Positions 28,282-35,901 of a stretch of DNA of 39,775 bases are shown piece by piece. The stretch lies in the IMG/VR virus record IMGVR_UViG_3300027706_000028, positions 1 through 39,775 of that record; one strand, written 5' to 3'. Source of the DNA: a virus. Positions within the stretch are counted from its first letter, which is position 1, and the number at the start of each line of letters is the position of its first letter. The notes under the pieces were generated by a model, which saw nothing but the letters and a program-made list of their open reading frames with translations, was not told the origin of the DNA and ran no database searches. The position numbers and the translations under genes are program-made.

Positions 28282-28994
28282 GCGACGCCATCGAGGCCCT
28301 ACGGCTCGCGCGCGAGCTGTGGCCTGACCTGCCGCCCGCCGAGCTGACAGCAGCGGCAAGCGAGATCCTGCGATTCCTCACCGCGCCTTCCCCCGCCTCA
28401 CCGCTCGACGAGGATGCGGAGCTGACGGCCGCCGCGATCGCCGCGCGATACAAACAGGGCGCCACACTTAAGCGGCTGGCGCACCAGAAAGGCGTCAGCA
28501 CCAACACGATCCGGCGGATGCTGCTGTCTCACGGGGTCGAGCTGCGACCGATAACCGAGCGGCAGCGCGCGCACCTCTTGCGGATGCGGCAAAGCCGGCG
28601 CCGGCCGCCAGGCTCCCCAGCCGCCGCGCCGGCAGAGGCCGCGCCGCCGCAACCAGCCCCGCCGGCGCCGCCGCCGCCGCAACCAGCCCCGCCGCCGCCG
28701 CAGCCAGCCCCGCCGCCGCCGCCGCCGTCCGCTCCGCCGCCGCCGCAACCAGCCCCGCCGGCGCCGCCGCCGCCGCAACCAGCCCCGCCGCCGCCGCAGC
28801 CAGCCCCGCCGCGGCCGCGGCCCTCCGCTCCGCCGCCGCCGCAGCCAGCCCCGCCGCCGCAGCGCCCGATCACGTCTCGGCGGCTCGCGGAATTGGAAGC
28901 CATCTCGCGCGCGATCGAGGCCGGGAAGATCAAGCGCATGCCGACGGCTTACGCCGTCGAGACCCCGCAGGGCGCCCGCGCCGCCCCGAGATGA
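28278..28994 (+). CDS. HTH protein with long proline-rich repeat domain
   Basis: This is a 238-residue protein with GTG 28278 overlapping the previous stop. Residues about 50-91 (TAAAIAARYKQGATLKRLAHQKGVSTNTIRRMLLSHGVELRP) form a resolvase/homeodomain-like helix-turn-helix. Residues about 120-195 are composed of PPPPQPAPP units, including an exact 96-bp tandem duplication. The C-terminal 43 residues are charged (RRLAELEAISRAIEAGKIKR). It may be an early transcription or replication regulator with a flexible protein-binding arm; such roles cannot be shown from sequence. It overlaps the primase start by ATGA. Confidence 0.7.
   Translation: MSDAIEALRLARELWPDLPPAELTAAASEILRFLTAPSPASPLDEDAELTAAAIAARYKQGATLKRLAHQKGVSTNTIRRMLLSHGVELRPITERQRAHLLRMRQSRRRPPGSPAAAPAEAAPPQPAPPAPPPPQPAPPPPQPAPPPPPPSAPPPPQPAPPAPPPPQPAPPPPQPAPPRPRPSAPPPPQPAPPPQRPITSRRLAELEAISRAIEAGKIKRMPTAYAVETPQGARAAPR
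28650..28842 (+). repeat. 96-bp tandem duplication encoding a proline-rich segment
   Basis: Two adjacent copies encode a 32-residue unit of the form PQPAPPAPPPPQPAPPPPQP then APPPPPPSAPPP. The second copy differs mainly by RPRP in place of PPPP. Within each unit a CCGCCGCCGCAACCAGCC block is itself repeated. The structure indicates a recent duplication and potential length variation among relatives. Confidence 0.8.
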
Positions 28995-30034
28995 ACGATA
29001 TCGCGGACATCATCGAAAACCTGCGCCGCCACGCGCCGGCGCTCGCGGCCGAGCTGCTCCCCGGTGGCACGCGCCAAGGCCACGAATGGGTGGTCCCGAG
29101 TGAGCGCTCACCGTGGGGCTGTTCAATCGCGGTGCACCTCGACGGCCGCAAGGCGGGAGTGTGGGGCGCCTGGGCGGCCGGCCGCTACGGCGATGCGCTG
29201 ACCCTGATCAGCGAGACGCGCACCAATGGCGATCGCAGGGCCGCCATCCGTTGGGCGCGCGAATGGCTGCGCTGGCCCCCGCTGGCCCCGACCCCGTCAG
29301 CCGCGCAGAAGCCCCGCTTACATTCACGATCGGCGCCGGGCCGCGCCGCTTGGCTGGAGATTTGGCAGCACGCCAAACCGCTCACGCCGCGTGACCCGGT
29401 GTGGAGCTACCTGCGAGGCCGCGGCCTTGACTTGGCCCGCTTGCCGCGACCACCCCGCGCACTGCGCTACCATCCCTCGCTTTATCACGCGCCCTCTGAC
29501 CGGCACTGGCCGGCGATGGTGGCCGCGATCGTGCGGCAGGAGGCCGGCAAATATCGCCTAACCGGAGTGCACCGCACGTTTTTGGCGCGCACCCCGGGAG
29601 CCGCAAACGACTGGCGGAAAGCCCCCGTGGACAGCCCGAAGATGATGCTCGGCGAGAAGCGGGCGGGCTTCGTCGCCCTGACCCGCGGCGCAGCAGGCAG
29701 ACCGATATCCTCGCCGGCCGCGGGCGAGGTCTGTCTGATCGCGGAAGGGATCGAGGACGGCTTGACGGCCGCGCTCGCCGCGCCTGAGCGCCGCGTGATT
29801 GTTGCCCTCGACATCGGCAACATGGCGACAATTGAGCTGCCCGTTGCGATCGCTGAAATTGTGATTTTGGCGCAGCGCGATCCATGGTGGCACGACAGCG
29901 CCCGCCGGCCGGCGCCGGCTCGCCTAGCGCTGGAGGCCGCGATCCGCCACTTCCAGGCTCAGGGCCGCCGCGTGCGGCTGGCGTTGCCGCCGCCCGAGAG
30001 CAAGGACCTCAACGCGATGGTGGCCGCATCATGA
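28991..30034 (+). CDS. Toprim-domain DNA primase
   Basis: This is a 347-residue protein. Residues 1-90 contain a short primase-like N-terminal region (EWVVPSER...WGCSIAVHLDGRKAGVWGAWAAGRYGDAL..I). Residues about 135-215 read YLRGRGLDLARLP..LRYHPSLYH and LTGVHRTFLAR, typical of phage Toprim primase proteins. The Toprim domain has Glu252 (LIAEGIEDGLTAAL) and Asp274 (IVALDIGNM), metal-coordinating positions. It should synthesise RNA primers with the downstream helicase. No zinc-binding cysteine cluster is visible. The ATGA overlap with the helicase gene supports joint function. Confidence 0.85.
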   Translation: MNDIADIIENLRRHAPALAAELLPGGTRQGHEWVVPSERSPWGCSIAVHLDGRKAGVWGAWAAGRYGDALTLISETRTNGDRRAAIRWAREWLRWPPLAPTPSAAQKPRLHSRSAPGRAAWLEIWQHAKPLTPRDPVWSYLRGRGLDLARLPRPPRALRYHPSLYHAPSDRHWPAMVAAIVRQEAGKYRLTGVHRTFLARTPGAANDWRKAPVDSPKMMLGEKRAGFVALTRGAAGRPISSPAAGEVCLIAEGIEDGLTAALAAPERRVIVALDIGNMATIELPVAIAEIVILAQRDPWWHDSARRPAPARLALEAAIRHFQAQGRRVRLALPPPESKDLNAMVAAS

Positions 30035-31800
30035 GCGACGATCCGCTCAGCGGCCCGCGGCTGGTGATCGACAACGCCCCGACCGTGCCGGCCGCGATCA
30101 GCGACGCAGAAGGCGACGCCACCGACCGCGCCAAGAGCGGATTGCCGCGTGATTGCCCGGTCAAGCCGCTGGGGATGGACGATGACGGGCGGTTTTTTTA
30201 TCTAGACGCAATCCAGCAATTGCGTGTGCTGCGCGAGAAAGACCACTCCCGCCTAGGATTGCTCGCGCTGTTCAACCACCGCTGGCCGATCTTGCAGGAG
30301 ACGTGGCCGCGTGTGGCTAAGGATGGCACCGTCACCGGATGGCGCCCCGAGCGCGCCGCCGAAGAGCTGATTGCAGCCTGCGGGCGACGCGGCCCGCTCG
30401 ATATCGCCGTGCGCGTGCGCGGGCCCGGAGCCTGGCGAGACGATGACGGCCAGCTGGTATTGCACTGCGGCGACCGCGTGCTGATCGATCGGCAATGGCA
30501 CCGGCCAGGCGAGCATGGCGGCTACATCTACCCGGCCGCCGCACCCGTGCCGCCGCCTAGCGAGGCGATCGCGCTCGGCGGCGCGCGCGGCCCCGCCCAG
30601 GCTCTCTTAGACCTGCTAAAGCAATGGAATTGGCGAGAGCCTGAAACCAGCCCCTATCTGTTGCTCGGCTGGATCGGCGCCGCGAAGCTTGGCGGGGCCC
30701 TGCCGTGGCGCCCAACGCTCTGGGTGACCGGCGACCTCAGCACCGGCAAATCGACATTGCTCGGTATGCTTTCGGAGATTTTCGGCAGCGGCGGCGTGCA
30801 TGCCGCGGTTAATACGTCGGCCGCCGGGATCTGGCAGACCACCCGTCATTCCTCACTGCCGATCACCCTCGACGAGAGCGAGGCCGACAGCGACCCACGC
30901 CGGATGCGCAGCCTCATCGAGCTGGCCCGCGCGGCTAGTTCCGGCGGCGTAATTTATCGCGGCGGCAGCGAGCACCACCCGATCACTTTCACGATCCGCT
31001 GTTGTTTTCTCTTTTCGTCAATCCTGATCCCCGGCTTGCTGCCACAAGATTGGTCGCGGATTGCCGTCCTCGAACTCGACCCGCTCGACCGCGCACCGCA
31101 GACGCTCAGCCTCGATCCGCGCAAACTGCGCGCCCTCGGAGAAGCGCTGACGCGGCGCGCCGTAGACAACTGGCCCCGCCTGACACGCTCGTTTGAGAGC
31201 TACCGCCAGGCACTCGCCGCAGCCGGCCACAAGGCGCGCGGCGCCGACCAGTACGGCATGTTGCTCGCCTGCGCCGATCTGCTATTGCACGACGACGAGG
31301 CGATCCCGAGCGACGAGCTGGAAATGTGGGCGCGCCGGCTCAGACCCTCTAAGGTGGCGGTCTACAGCGATCAGAAGCGCGACCATCAGCGCTGCATTGA
31401 CCGGATCATGTCCGCTGTGATCGATCCGTACCGCAACGGCTCCCGCCGCACGATAGCGCAATGGATTTCGGACGCCATGGACCCGATCGAGGATCAGCCG
31501 CGCGCCGCGAATAAAGTGCTAGAAACCTACGGGCTGGCAGTAGAGCGCACCGACGGCCCGGCCGGAACGGCATGGTGGCTCTTGGTAGCCAACACCCACG
31601 CCGGCCTGGCCGAACTGTTTTCTGGCTCGCACTGGGCGCCGAGCAGCGGGACGTCGGCCCCATGGGTGCAAGCCCTGCGCCGCTTTGCGGGCGCGGCGCC
31701 AGTAGCGCAGCACCGATTTGCGGGCTATCCCGCCCGCGCGACGCGCTTGCCATTACGGGAAGTGCTAGACGCCGCGCCGCCGCCCGAAGACGACGAATGA
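30031..31800 (+). CDS. Replicative helicase-like P-loop ATPase
   Basis: This is a 589-residue protein with ATG 30031 overlapping the primase stop. Walker A is WVTGDLSTGKSTLL with Lys240 and Ser241. Walker B-like is LPITLDESEAD with Asp281-Glu282, followed by a helix and IRCCFLFSSILIPGL, resembling a sensor-1 strand. This layout (long N-terminal region, ATPase core at 220-400, C-terminal helical region) fits DUF927/D5-like phage helicases paired with Toprim primases. It likely unwinds the origin for host polymerase. No phage polymerase gene is found nearby. Confidence 0.8.
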   Translation: MSDDPLSGPRLVIDNAPTVPAAISDAEGDATDRAKSGLPRDCPVKPLGMDDDGRFFYLDAIQQLRVLREKDHSRLGLLALFNHRWPILQETWPRVAKDGTVTGWRPERAAEELIAACGRRGPLDIAVRVRGPGAWRDDDGQLVLHCGDRVLIDRQWHRPGEHGGYIYPAAAPVPPPSEAIALGGARGPAQALLDLLKQWNWREPETSPYLLLGWIGAAKLGGALPWRPTLWVTGDLSTGKSTLLGMLSEIFGSGGVHAAVNTSAAGIWQTTRHSSLPITLDESEADSDPRRMRSLIELARAASSGGVIYRGGSEHHPITFTIRCCFLFSSILIPGLLPQDWSRIAVLELDPLDRAPQTLSLDPRKLRALGEALTRRAVDNWPRLTRSFESYRQALAAAGHKARGADQYGMLLACADLLLHDDEAIPSDELEMWARRLRPSKVAVYSDQKRDHQRCIDRIMSAVIDPYRNGSRRTIAQWISDAMDPIEDQPRAANKVLETYGLAVERTDGPAGTAWWLLVANTHAGLAELFSGSHWAPSSGTSAPWVQALRRFAGAAPVAQHRFAGYPARATRLPLREVLDAAPPPEDDE

Positions 31801-33174: not shown

Positions 33175-33204
33175 AAGCGCCGCACCTTTGTGCGGCGCTT
33201 TTTT
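33175..33204 (+). terminator. Strong rho-independent terminator ending the early operon
   Basis: A perfect 11-bp stem aagcgccgcac/gtgcggcgctt (33175-33185/33190-33200) with loop CTTT is followed by TTTT. It separates early replication genes from the packaging region. Confidence 0.92.
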
Positions 33205-33269: not shown

Positions 33270-33539
33270 TGCAACGCTGCAACGCTAAATGCAACGCTCA
33301 GAAAAGCCAGCGTTGCGCATTTTTTGTAATCATGCCAACAGGTTAGAGGGATCTGCAACGCTGCAACGCTGCCGCTCGCGCGCACACGCGAGAATACCGC
33401 CATAGGAATAGATGCGTCCTTGGCGCGCGCGAAGTATAGCGTTGCAGCGTTGCAGCTATAGATATCTCATTGAAGGGACGTGGAAAAATAGTGCAACACC
33501 CCTGCAACAACACTGCAACGTTTCATTTCCAGCGTTGCA
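33270..33539. repeat. Iteron-like array of TGCAACGCT / AGCGTTGCA
   Basis: Exact forward copies lie at 33270, 33278, 33290, 33354 and 33362. Exact reverse copies lie at 33438, 33446 and 33531. An 8-of-9 reverse copy starts at 33309 and an 8-of-9 forward copy at 33514. Shorter TGCAAC copies lie at 33492 and 33503. Six of the exact copies form three 17-bp double sites sharing one base (33270-33286, 33354-33370, 33438-33454). Their starts are exactly 84 bp apart, about eight helical turns. The third pair is inverted. Such phased double sites imply cooperative binding of a phage protein. The adjacent small terminase candidate and the early initiation proteins are the obvious candidates. Confidence 0.85.
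33291..33325 (+). terminator. Hairpin formed by opposed repeats followed by T6
   Basis: Stem gcaacgct/agcgttgc (33291-33298/33309-33316) with a 10-nt loop is followed by GCATTTTTT. It can fold as a rho-independent terminator-like structure on the plus strand, backing up the terminator at 33175. The arms are array repeats, so the inversion may exist for protein binding instead. Confidence 0.5.
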
Positions 33540-33566: not shown

Positions 33567-34139
33567 GTGGCTGGCGATCGCACCGCGCTCGACGAAGTGA
33601 TGGCCCGGCAGGAAGCCGAGGCTGACGACGAAGACCGGCAATTCAGCCTGTTCGCGCCGCCGCTTACCGAAGCCGGCATGGCGCGCTCAGTGATCCATCG
33701 CCGCGGCCGCGGCCGGCCGCCCGGCGCCCGGAACAAGCGCACGATCAAGACCGTGGCGATGCTGCTATCCCGCCACAGGAACCCGCTCGAGGTACTGCTC
33801 GAGATCGCCGAGACCAACGTCGCCGACCTCGCGGCGCTGTATGACTGCAGCCTACTCGAGGCTGGCCAGGAAAAGCGCCTAGCCGCGATCGCCGCGCTCC
33901 CCTACGTGGCGCAACGCCAGCCGCTGGCTATCGATATCACCCAGCGCCGCGCCGTCTATCTGACGATCACGGATGGCGACACGACGATGACCGCCGCCGC
34001 GCAGGAAGGGCCGGCGCCGATCGAACTCAAAAATGTGGAATATCAATGGCTTCCTGAAGGCGACCCAACGCCAGTTGAACGCGCCGGGGTTGAACGCGGA
34101 ACCGAACCCGAGCAAAGCCGCGGCCATGAGAGCGAATGA
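33567..34139 (+). CDS. Putative small terminase subunit / packaging DNA-binding protein
   Basis: This is a 190-residue protein with GTG 33567 and CGGGA six bases upstream. It directly precedes the terminase large subunit region. Residues about 45-65 contain RRGRGRPPGARNKRTIKT, an AT-hook-like basic segment common at the N terminus of phage small terminase-type proteins. Helices (AMLLSRHRNPLEVLLEIAE, AALYDCSLLEAGQEKRLAAIAAL) follow. Its start lies 27 bp from the repeat array, making the array a plausible binding site for packaging or autoregulation. The last 35 residues overlap another frame (34033) that has the better coding signal, so the true C terminus may differ. Confidence 0.7.
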   Translation: MAGDRTALDEVMARQEAEADDEDRQFSLFAPPLTEAGMARSVIHRRGRGRPPGARNKRTIKTVAMLLSRHRNPLEVLLEIAETNVADLAALYDCSLLEAGQEKRLAAIAALPYVAQRQPLAIDITQRRAVYLTITDGDTTMTAAAQEGPAPIELKNVEYQWLPEGDPTPVERAGVERGTEPEQSRGHESE

Positions 34140-34347: not shown

Positions 34348-35901
34348 ATGAACGAGAGCGTCCTCGAGCTGGCATGGAAAAGCCCCGGCCCGGTGTCGAG
34401 CCAATTCATGCGATCAACAGCGCGAGTTCAGGTGCTGAACGGACCGGTCGGGTCCGGCAAGACCACGACTGTGTTCATGAAGGCCGTCAAGCTGGCGCAG
34501 CAGCAAGCGCCGTCACCGAAGCGGCGCATCCAACTGCACGGCGAGCCGATACCGCGACCGGTGCGGATGTTCAAGCTTTGCGTGGTGCGCGACACCTACC
34601 GCAATCTCTGGCGCTCGACCATAAAAAGCTGGGAAAAACGGATGCCGCGAGACATCGGAGAGTGGAAGGGAGCGGAAGGCGGCCCGGCGACCCACACCAT
34701 TCCTTTGGTGCTGCAGGACGGAACAGTGGTTGAGCTGATCGTGGATTTTATCGCGATCGGAGACAACTCGGCTGAGGACGTGCTGAGGGGCTACGAGCCG
34801 ACCGCCTTTTACCTGAACGAAGCGGACCGATTACATTGGGAATGCTACCAGTGGGCGCGCACCCGGTGGGGGCGCTATCCCGACATCGACCATGGCGGCC
34901 CGACATGGTGGGGGATCCTGATGGACTGCAACGCGCCGCAGATCGGCACGCCGCTTTACGAGCGGATTTTCCTGCGCACCCCGCCCGACGTCGAGTTGTT
35001 CCGCCAGCCCTCGGGATTGGCGCCAGACGCGGAAAACAAAAGCAACCTCGCTCCCGGCTATTACGAGGAAATGATGGCCGAGATGGAAGAGGCTTTAATC
35101 GATCGAATGATCCGCAACCGCCCCGGTTTTTCTCTGGCCGGCAAGCCAGTTCATCCCGAATTCAACGATCTTTTGCATGTGGCCGATCACACCCTCGAGC
35201 CGATCCCGGGGCTGCCACTGATCATGGGTTTCGATGCCGGCCTCGACCCCGCCGCCGTGATCTGTCAGAAGATCGGGAATGGCCGCTGGCACGTGCTGGA
35301 CGAGATCGTCTCGGAGCATGGCACCGGAGCGATTCGCTTCTCGCGCCACATCAACGAGCTGTTGCGCGAACGTTATCCCGACTGGCACGCAACCCCGATC
35401 AGCGAGCCCGCCGCATGGCTCGAGCCCCCGCATCGTCGCTCGCGGATCAAGATCCAGGGATGGGCCGATCCGGCTGCGCAGTGGGGCGTTGATCGCCAGG
35501 AGGACGAACAGACCTGGATCGAACTGGTTTCCTACCACACCGGCATTCGGATTGCGCCCGCGCCGACCAACGACCGCACGACGCGGCGCGAGAGCCTTCG
35601 GCGCGTACTGACCCTGATGCCCGACGGCAAGCCCGCCTTCGTGCTGAGCCCGCGGTGCGAAAAGTTGCGCGCCGGCCTCAATGGTGGCTTCCACTATCGC
35701 AAGATGCAGCTGTCGGCCTCGACCGAAGACCGATGGTCGGACGAGGTCGAAAAGAACGGCTTCAGCCATGTTTGCGAGGCGCTGGAATACGCGATGATGG
35801 GCGGCGGCGAGGCCGCCGAAATCCATGAGCGCCGCCAACGCGGCTGGGACGTGCATCGTCTGCCGCGGCAAGCCGTCGATGACCTGCGGCTGCCAGAATG
35901 A
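34348..35901 (+). CDS. terL: Terminase large subunit
   Basis: This is a 517-residue protein with a very strong ribosome-binding site (GGAGGGGGTGAGGGG). The ATPase domain has Walker A GPVGSGKTT (residues 32-40), Walker B AFYLNEAD (Glu158 catalytic candidate) and a WGILMDCNAPQIG segment consistent with the coupling motif. The nuclease domain begins at IMGFDAGLDPAAV with Asp296 as first metal ligand. It powers DNA translocation into the procapsid through the portal and cuts concatemers. The length is normal for the family. It is followed by a short gap and the small virion-gene cluster. Confidence 0.95.
   Translation: MNESVLELAWKSPGPVSSQFMRSTARVQVLNGPVGSGKTTTVFMKAVKLAQQQAPSPKRRIQLHGEPIPRPVRMFKLCVVRDTYRNLWRSTIKSWEKRMPRDIGEWKGAEGGPATHTIPLVLQDGTVVELIVDFIAIGDNSAEDVLRGYEPTAFYLNEADRLHWECYQWARTRWGRYPDIDHGGPTWWGILMDCNAPQIGTPLYERIFLRTPPDVELFRQPSGLAPDAENKSNLAPGYYEEMMAEMEEALIDRMIRNRPGFSLAGKPVHPEFNDLLHVADHTLEPIPGLPLIMGFDAGLDPAAVICQKIGNGRWHVLDEIVSEHGTGAIRFSRHINELLRERYPDWHATPISEPAAWLEPPHRRSRIKIQGWADPAAQWGVDRQEDEQTWIELVSYHTGIRIAPAPTNDRTTRRESLRRVLTLMPDGKPAFVLSPRCEKLRAGLNGGFHYRKMQLSASTEDRWSDEVEKNGFSHVCEALEYAMMGGGEAAEIHERRQRGWDVHRLPRQAVDDLRLPE

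Follow-up and report, generated by a model that had tools for sequence, protein, structure and literature searches.

A near-dyad hexamer iteron array as a probable phage replication origin read by the C-terminal region of a DUF927-like helicase

Phage helicases of one family come with hexamer iterons in a near-dyad arrangement, and the sequence of the hexamer varies together with that of the helicase C-terminal region. Comparison of these sequences indicates that the array is very probably a replication origin, with iterons that would be bound by the helicase C-terminal domain in the manner of SaPI Rep. A replication origin was among the original predictions for this array, and it gained support from a layout that is kept with the helicase and a hexamer that tracks the helicase C-terminal region. 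The array is thus a candidate origin for a large and poorly studied phage group. Further, with the layout constant, approximately 46 hexamers pair with helicase C-terminal regions that diverge, a natural series that makes the rules of initiator-DNA recognition and the drift of its specificity directly testable.

The window, the whole 39.8-kb virus record that was analysed, carries genes for an integrase, a primase, a helicase, a TerS-like protein and a phrog_2 large terminase. Exact copies of TGCAACGCT were found eight times, all within the 270 bp at 33270-33539 and none elsewhere in the window, as compared with 0.51 expected window-wide; none of 100 shuffles reached eight, and the shuffle maximum was 2. 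These copies begin at 33270, 33278, 33290, 33354 and 33362 on the plus strand and at 33438, 33446 and 33531 on the minus strand, and the core TGCAAC is present in 11 copies. As originally predicted, the array contains three 17-bp double sites, at 33270, 33354 and 33438, which are 84 bp apart from start to start, and the third of them is inverted. The prediction that no gene covers the array also held, as none of the small open reading frames in this region was supported as a gene and an Rfam search of the region returned no match.

The array, the proposed replication origin, has an architecture common to 31 aligned arrays. From left to right, it consists of an outer-left cluster of three direct-orientation sites (33270-33298, plus strand), an inner-left tandem pair with an 8-bp period (33354-33370, plus strand), a central tract in which alternating purine-pyrimidine (CG/CA) steps are abundant (33371-33437; alternation, 0.65), an inverted inner-right tandem pair (33438-33454, minus strand), an AT-rich spacer that is a candidate strand-opening element (33455-33491), and an outer-right cluster (33492-33539) with TGCAAC at 33492, 33503 and 33514 on the plus strand and an inverted site at 33531-33539. 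Directly before the array lies a terminator-like hairpin with a strong 11-pair stem (33175-33200, plus strand), the one such hairpin found, with 0.9 expected in shuffles.

All of the neighboring genes described here lie on the plus strand. A DnaG-type primase (28991-30034; DUF7146 and Toprim_3 by Pfam and PHROGs) precedes a DUF927-like AAA+ helicase (29884-31800; phrog_21086/phrog_35358), the proposed initiator. Matches to DUF927 were obtained for 7 of 31 members of the helicase family (best E value, 0.0007), and none was shown above the gathering score; with matches below threshold only, the phage helicase is a candidate member of DUF927. The C-terminal region of the helicase (residues 481-638; 31324-31797) is the proposed reader of the hexamer. 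At its end, the AlphaFold model of this region (pLDDT 89) shows two helix-helix-strand-strand modules whose secondary structure resembles that of winged helices; this resemblance is read from the model and is not a fold match. Fold comparison of both predicted models against the PDB, that of the helicase C-terminal region included, gave no confident match, and when the helicase was searched for a P4-like origin-binding domain, neither profile nor fold gave a confident PDB match. The array is followed by the gene for the TerS-like protein (33567-34139) and by that for the terminase large subunit (phrog_2; 34348-35901). Proteins of the 33567 type are called TerS-like here on two grounds, a gene position ahead of TerL and family matches that are weak.

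Scanning viral_contigs with the single TerS and helicase sequences of the window recovered no relatives. An exact 17-mer scan matched 12 viral contigs; several of these matches were isolated copies, and the scan was rejected as a sole criterion. Dense TGCAAC clusters were present in five of the matched contigs (L008, L010, L011, L017 and the AT-rich L014). A gapped pattern of two tandem pairs in inverted orientation matched 27 viral and 10 genome contigs, and many of the arrays recovered in this way sit between replication helicase and terminase genes. Because TGCAAC was the search criterion, arrays found through it are uninformative on sequence drift. One locus found through its terminase (L004) has the identical layout made of GTTACC, and the arrays of named phages found through their helicases are made of other hexamers. 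A helicase profile yielded 80 viral loci, including a few near-duplicates. Hexamer clusters scoring at least 22 were present in the helicase-TerL interval of 74 of these 80 loci, as compared with 3 of 80 for the remainder of the loci, and 46 distinct top hexamers were counted across the surveyed helicase loci.

The relatives share one order of elements: outer cluster, tandem pair, alternating purine-pyrimidine center, inverted pair, AT-rich spacer and outer cluster. Their inner tandem pairs, repeating every 8 bp, face inward across a gap of 47-92 bp, and their outer clusters are spaced at 10-12 bp and mostly face the opposite way to the inner pairs. The window array conforms to this layout with one exception, the inward orientation of its outer-left cluster, which is opposite to that in most relatives. 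Across the 31 arrays, alternation in the center was 0.70 as compared with 0.50 in shuffled sequence, and an AT-rich element beside the iterons was evident in the mean GC of the right spacer (0.33 versus 0.63 for the loci). In most half-arrays the inner pair and the outer cluster were 40-46 bp apart, with a mode of 42 bp, or four turns, and a second mode at 63-66 bp. This distance was phased at 10.5 bp (Rayleigh p ~1e-9, not corrected for relatedness). The interval across the center had no conserved phasing in the relatives (gap, 47-92 bp; Rayleigh p ~0.09) and was rejected as a conserved helical spacing. Thus, the predicted conservation of the 84-bp spacing across the center was not found among drifted relatives, and the helically phased protein complex once proposed gains support in altered form, its phasing standing at about 42 bp between inner pair and outer cluster and falling at the center.

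Co-variation was assessed by Mantel and partial Mantel tests of hexamer distance against protein distance in 40 loci, eight others being left out where the motif frame could not be aligned. The correlation of hexamer distance with the distance between helicase C-terminal regions was r=0.379, and it persisted given the rest of the helicase (0.317) or given TerS (0.306; each p=0.0003). In the same 40 loci, TerS had no residual association with the hexamer given the helicase C-terminal region (0.00, p=0.48), and nothing was left for the rest of the helicase (-0.11). TerL behaved like TerS (0.009), and a slight residual association remained for segment 45-125 of TerS (0.07, p=0.06). For locus pairs that include any of the seven loci whose array is more than 900 bp from the helicase, the values were 0.405 for the C-terminal region and 0.097 for TerS. 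Simple linkage is an unlikely cause of the co-variation, since the C-terminal signal persists in these loci. With all 48 loci the direction was the same and the contrast weaker (helicase given TerS, 0.16; TerS given helicase, 0.10). Since distance-matrix tests leave some of the relatedness among the sequences in place, the contrast between regions outweighs the p-values. Residue-by-base mutual information was not relied on, its top scores falling on near-invariant motif positions. Collectively, these sequence correlations support the helicase C-terminal region, rather than TerS, as the putative hexamer reader.

The position of the array by itself is ambiguous, and its proximity to TerS favored a packaging site. 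According to this alternative, the array would be a terminase recognition site (pac or cosB): the TerS-like protein encoded at 33567 would bind it, and its wrapping or looping would initiate packaging. In most loci it lies 20-300 bp before TerS, even with the helicase 1-3.5 kb away, and is nearer to TerS than to the helicase, from which its distance ranges from 43 bp to several kilobases across loci. In L097, where the helicase is downstream of TerS, the array stays with TerS. Like cos and pac sites, the repeats stand immediately upstream of terS, and in other phages terS is commonly found next to the site that its product recognizes. Unlike at such sites, control for the helicase C-terminal region leaves the hexamer with no association to TerS, the residue in segment 45-125 aside, and the array is kept with unrelated terminases. 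In L120 and L095, helicase and array are retained beside unrelated terminases of the P27 and phrog_57 types (phrog_83/phrog_9 and phrog_57/phrog_15, respectively), and the array of the Bdellovibrio phage phi1422 comes after the primase-helicase, 7.5 kb from TerL. The expectation that a cos or pac site travels with the terminase genes failed in these three genomes, although in most loci the array adjoins TerS. The predicted pac or cosB site read by the 33567 product was therefore not borne out by the zero TerS residual and the arrays beside unrelated terminases, and we consider it improbable. The same adjacency to TerS, together with the L097 arrangement, counts against the origin reading, as do the relatedness left in the Mantel tests, the DUF927 matches below threshold, the C-terminal model without a confident fold match, and cumulative GC skew, a check suggested with the original prediction, which had no clear turn at the array across the window and was uninformative.

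Somewhat less doubtful, although still unlikely, is the use of one region for both replication and packaging, in which the helicase would read the hexamers and TerS would use the same region or nearby newly replicated DNA. The constant neighborhood of TerS favors this possibility, as does a motif at the N terminus of the TerS-like proteins (QLDLL, QLSLL or QFSLF; window 33567-34139 and L064-L143) that resembles a bacterial sliding-clamp-binding peptide and that, judged by the consensus, may be one. Strict matches to this clamp-binding-like motif, QFSLF in the window, were found in 49 of 73 TerS-like proteins as compared with 0.8% in shuffles. An AT-hook-like RGRPxGSxNKRT segment follows the motif, and the TerS-like sequences are otherwise very divergent. 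Synechococcus phage S-H1 (L148, 17683-21054) encodes a DNA polymerase III beta subunit, the sliding clamp, between the array region and the terminase. An unlikely but conceivable replication-to-packaging hub would thus couple a helicase-read origin to a sliding clamp that recruits the TerS-like protein via its N-terminal motif, with packaging starting there or nearby on new DNA. Against dual use, the hexamers carry no TerS signal, the proximity may be mere gene order, and array and terminase are apart in phi1422 and in the Acinetobacter phage Acjo_20. In the latter, the array precedes the primase-helicase and TerS lies toward the opposite end of the record, at a distance of about 4 kb from the array if the record is circular. 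Literature searches for a clamp-binding TerS found none among the papers listed. Most improbable of all is an operator through which a DNA-binding regulator would control late genes. The array does stand at the boundary of early and late genes, after the terminator-like hairpin, but an origin would better account for eleven sites in 270 bp with near-dyad symmetry and an AT-rich spacer, the hexamer co-varies with a helicase domain, and no sigma-70-like promoter was found at the array.

For the favored replication origin, the nearest described system is the SaPI Rep origin (DUF927 Rep of SaPIbov1; SCCmec Cch and Cch2 relatives). SaPI Rep helicases bind iterons directly downstream of their gene via a C-terminal domain, apparently as two hexamers at the iterons, and one Rep type is related to the DUF927-containing Cch (PMC7581432). 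The best reading by this analogy is that the array works like a SaPI Rep origin and that the phage version may be a variant of a known origin type. Both would have a self-loading helicase with a C-terminal iteron-binding domain, as proposed here, a primase nearby, multiple short iterons downstream of the helicase gene and two proposed helicase assemblies. Unlike SaPI Rep origins, the arrays described here occur in tailed-phage genomes and combine an alternating purine-pyrimidine center and an AT-rich flanking spacer with inward pairs and outer clusters at 42 bp; their hexamers are strongly diversified, the helicase is below the DUF927 threshold, and the array is sometimes kilobases from it. 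By this model, the helicase would act as a SaPI-Rep-like initiator that binds the iterons via its C-terminal domain. Two facing helicase assemblies would probably occupy the two half-arrays, which a flexible center may let approach each other; the strands would first open at the AT-rich spacer, and the primase encoded just upstream would then prime replication. The alpha protein of phage P4, compared by description only, is also a primase-helicase initiator that reads short iterons, and P4 differs in needing a second region (crr). Plasmid iteron origins of the Rep_3 type resemble the array in having repeated initiator sites beside an AT-rich element, but their initiator is not a helicase and their iterons are longer and in direct tandem.

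Several further arrays and motifs were observed. Arrays of inverted TGCAAC pairs also occur beside another replication protein (PriCT_2 and AAA_25) in L021, L026-L028, L030, L031, L033, L034, L037 and L038, which share the hexamer because they were found by TGCAAC. A single Thermotogae contig (JALSLY010000054.1) is the source of the matches in L042 (7849-7948) and L045 (5-92), which seem to be two portions of one array after a primase and a helicase; no terminase was recognized among the listed genes of this contig. In L040 (626-722), a TGCAAC array has divergent terminase-like genes on one side and a VapE/BT4734-type helicase on the other. TGCAAC also occurs inside terS in L014 (6532-6780) and L062 (749-1099), Gram-positive-type phages whose TerS has an N-terminal HTH, perhaps as separate packaging sites; these copies were set aside as support for a pac site, the TerS being of a different type and most named relatives examined (L061, L063) being without them. 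At the C terminus of the TerS-like proteins (alignment A3), a recurring QNQ-x-(L/V)-S motif is followed by acidic and serine residues and is possibly another short interaction motif. Finally, an ACAGGT-containing repeat is present in 26 copies at the left end of L137 (2-382) and forms a tandem or CRISPR-like array.
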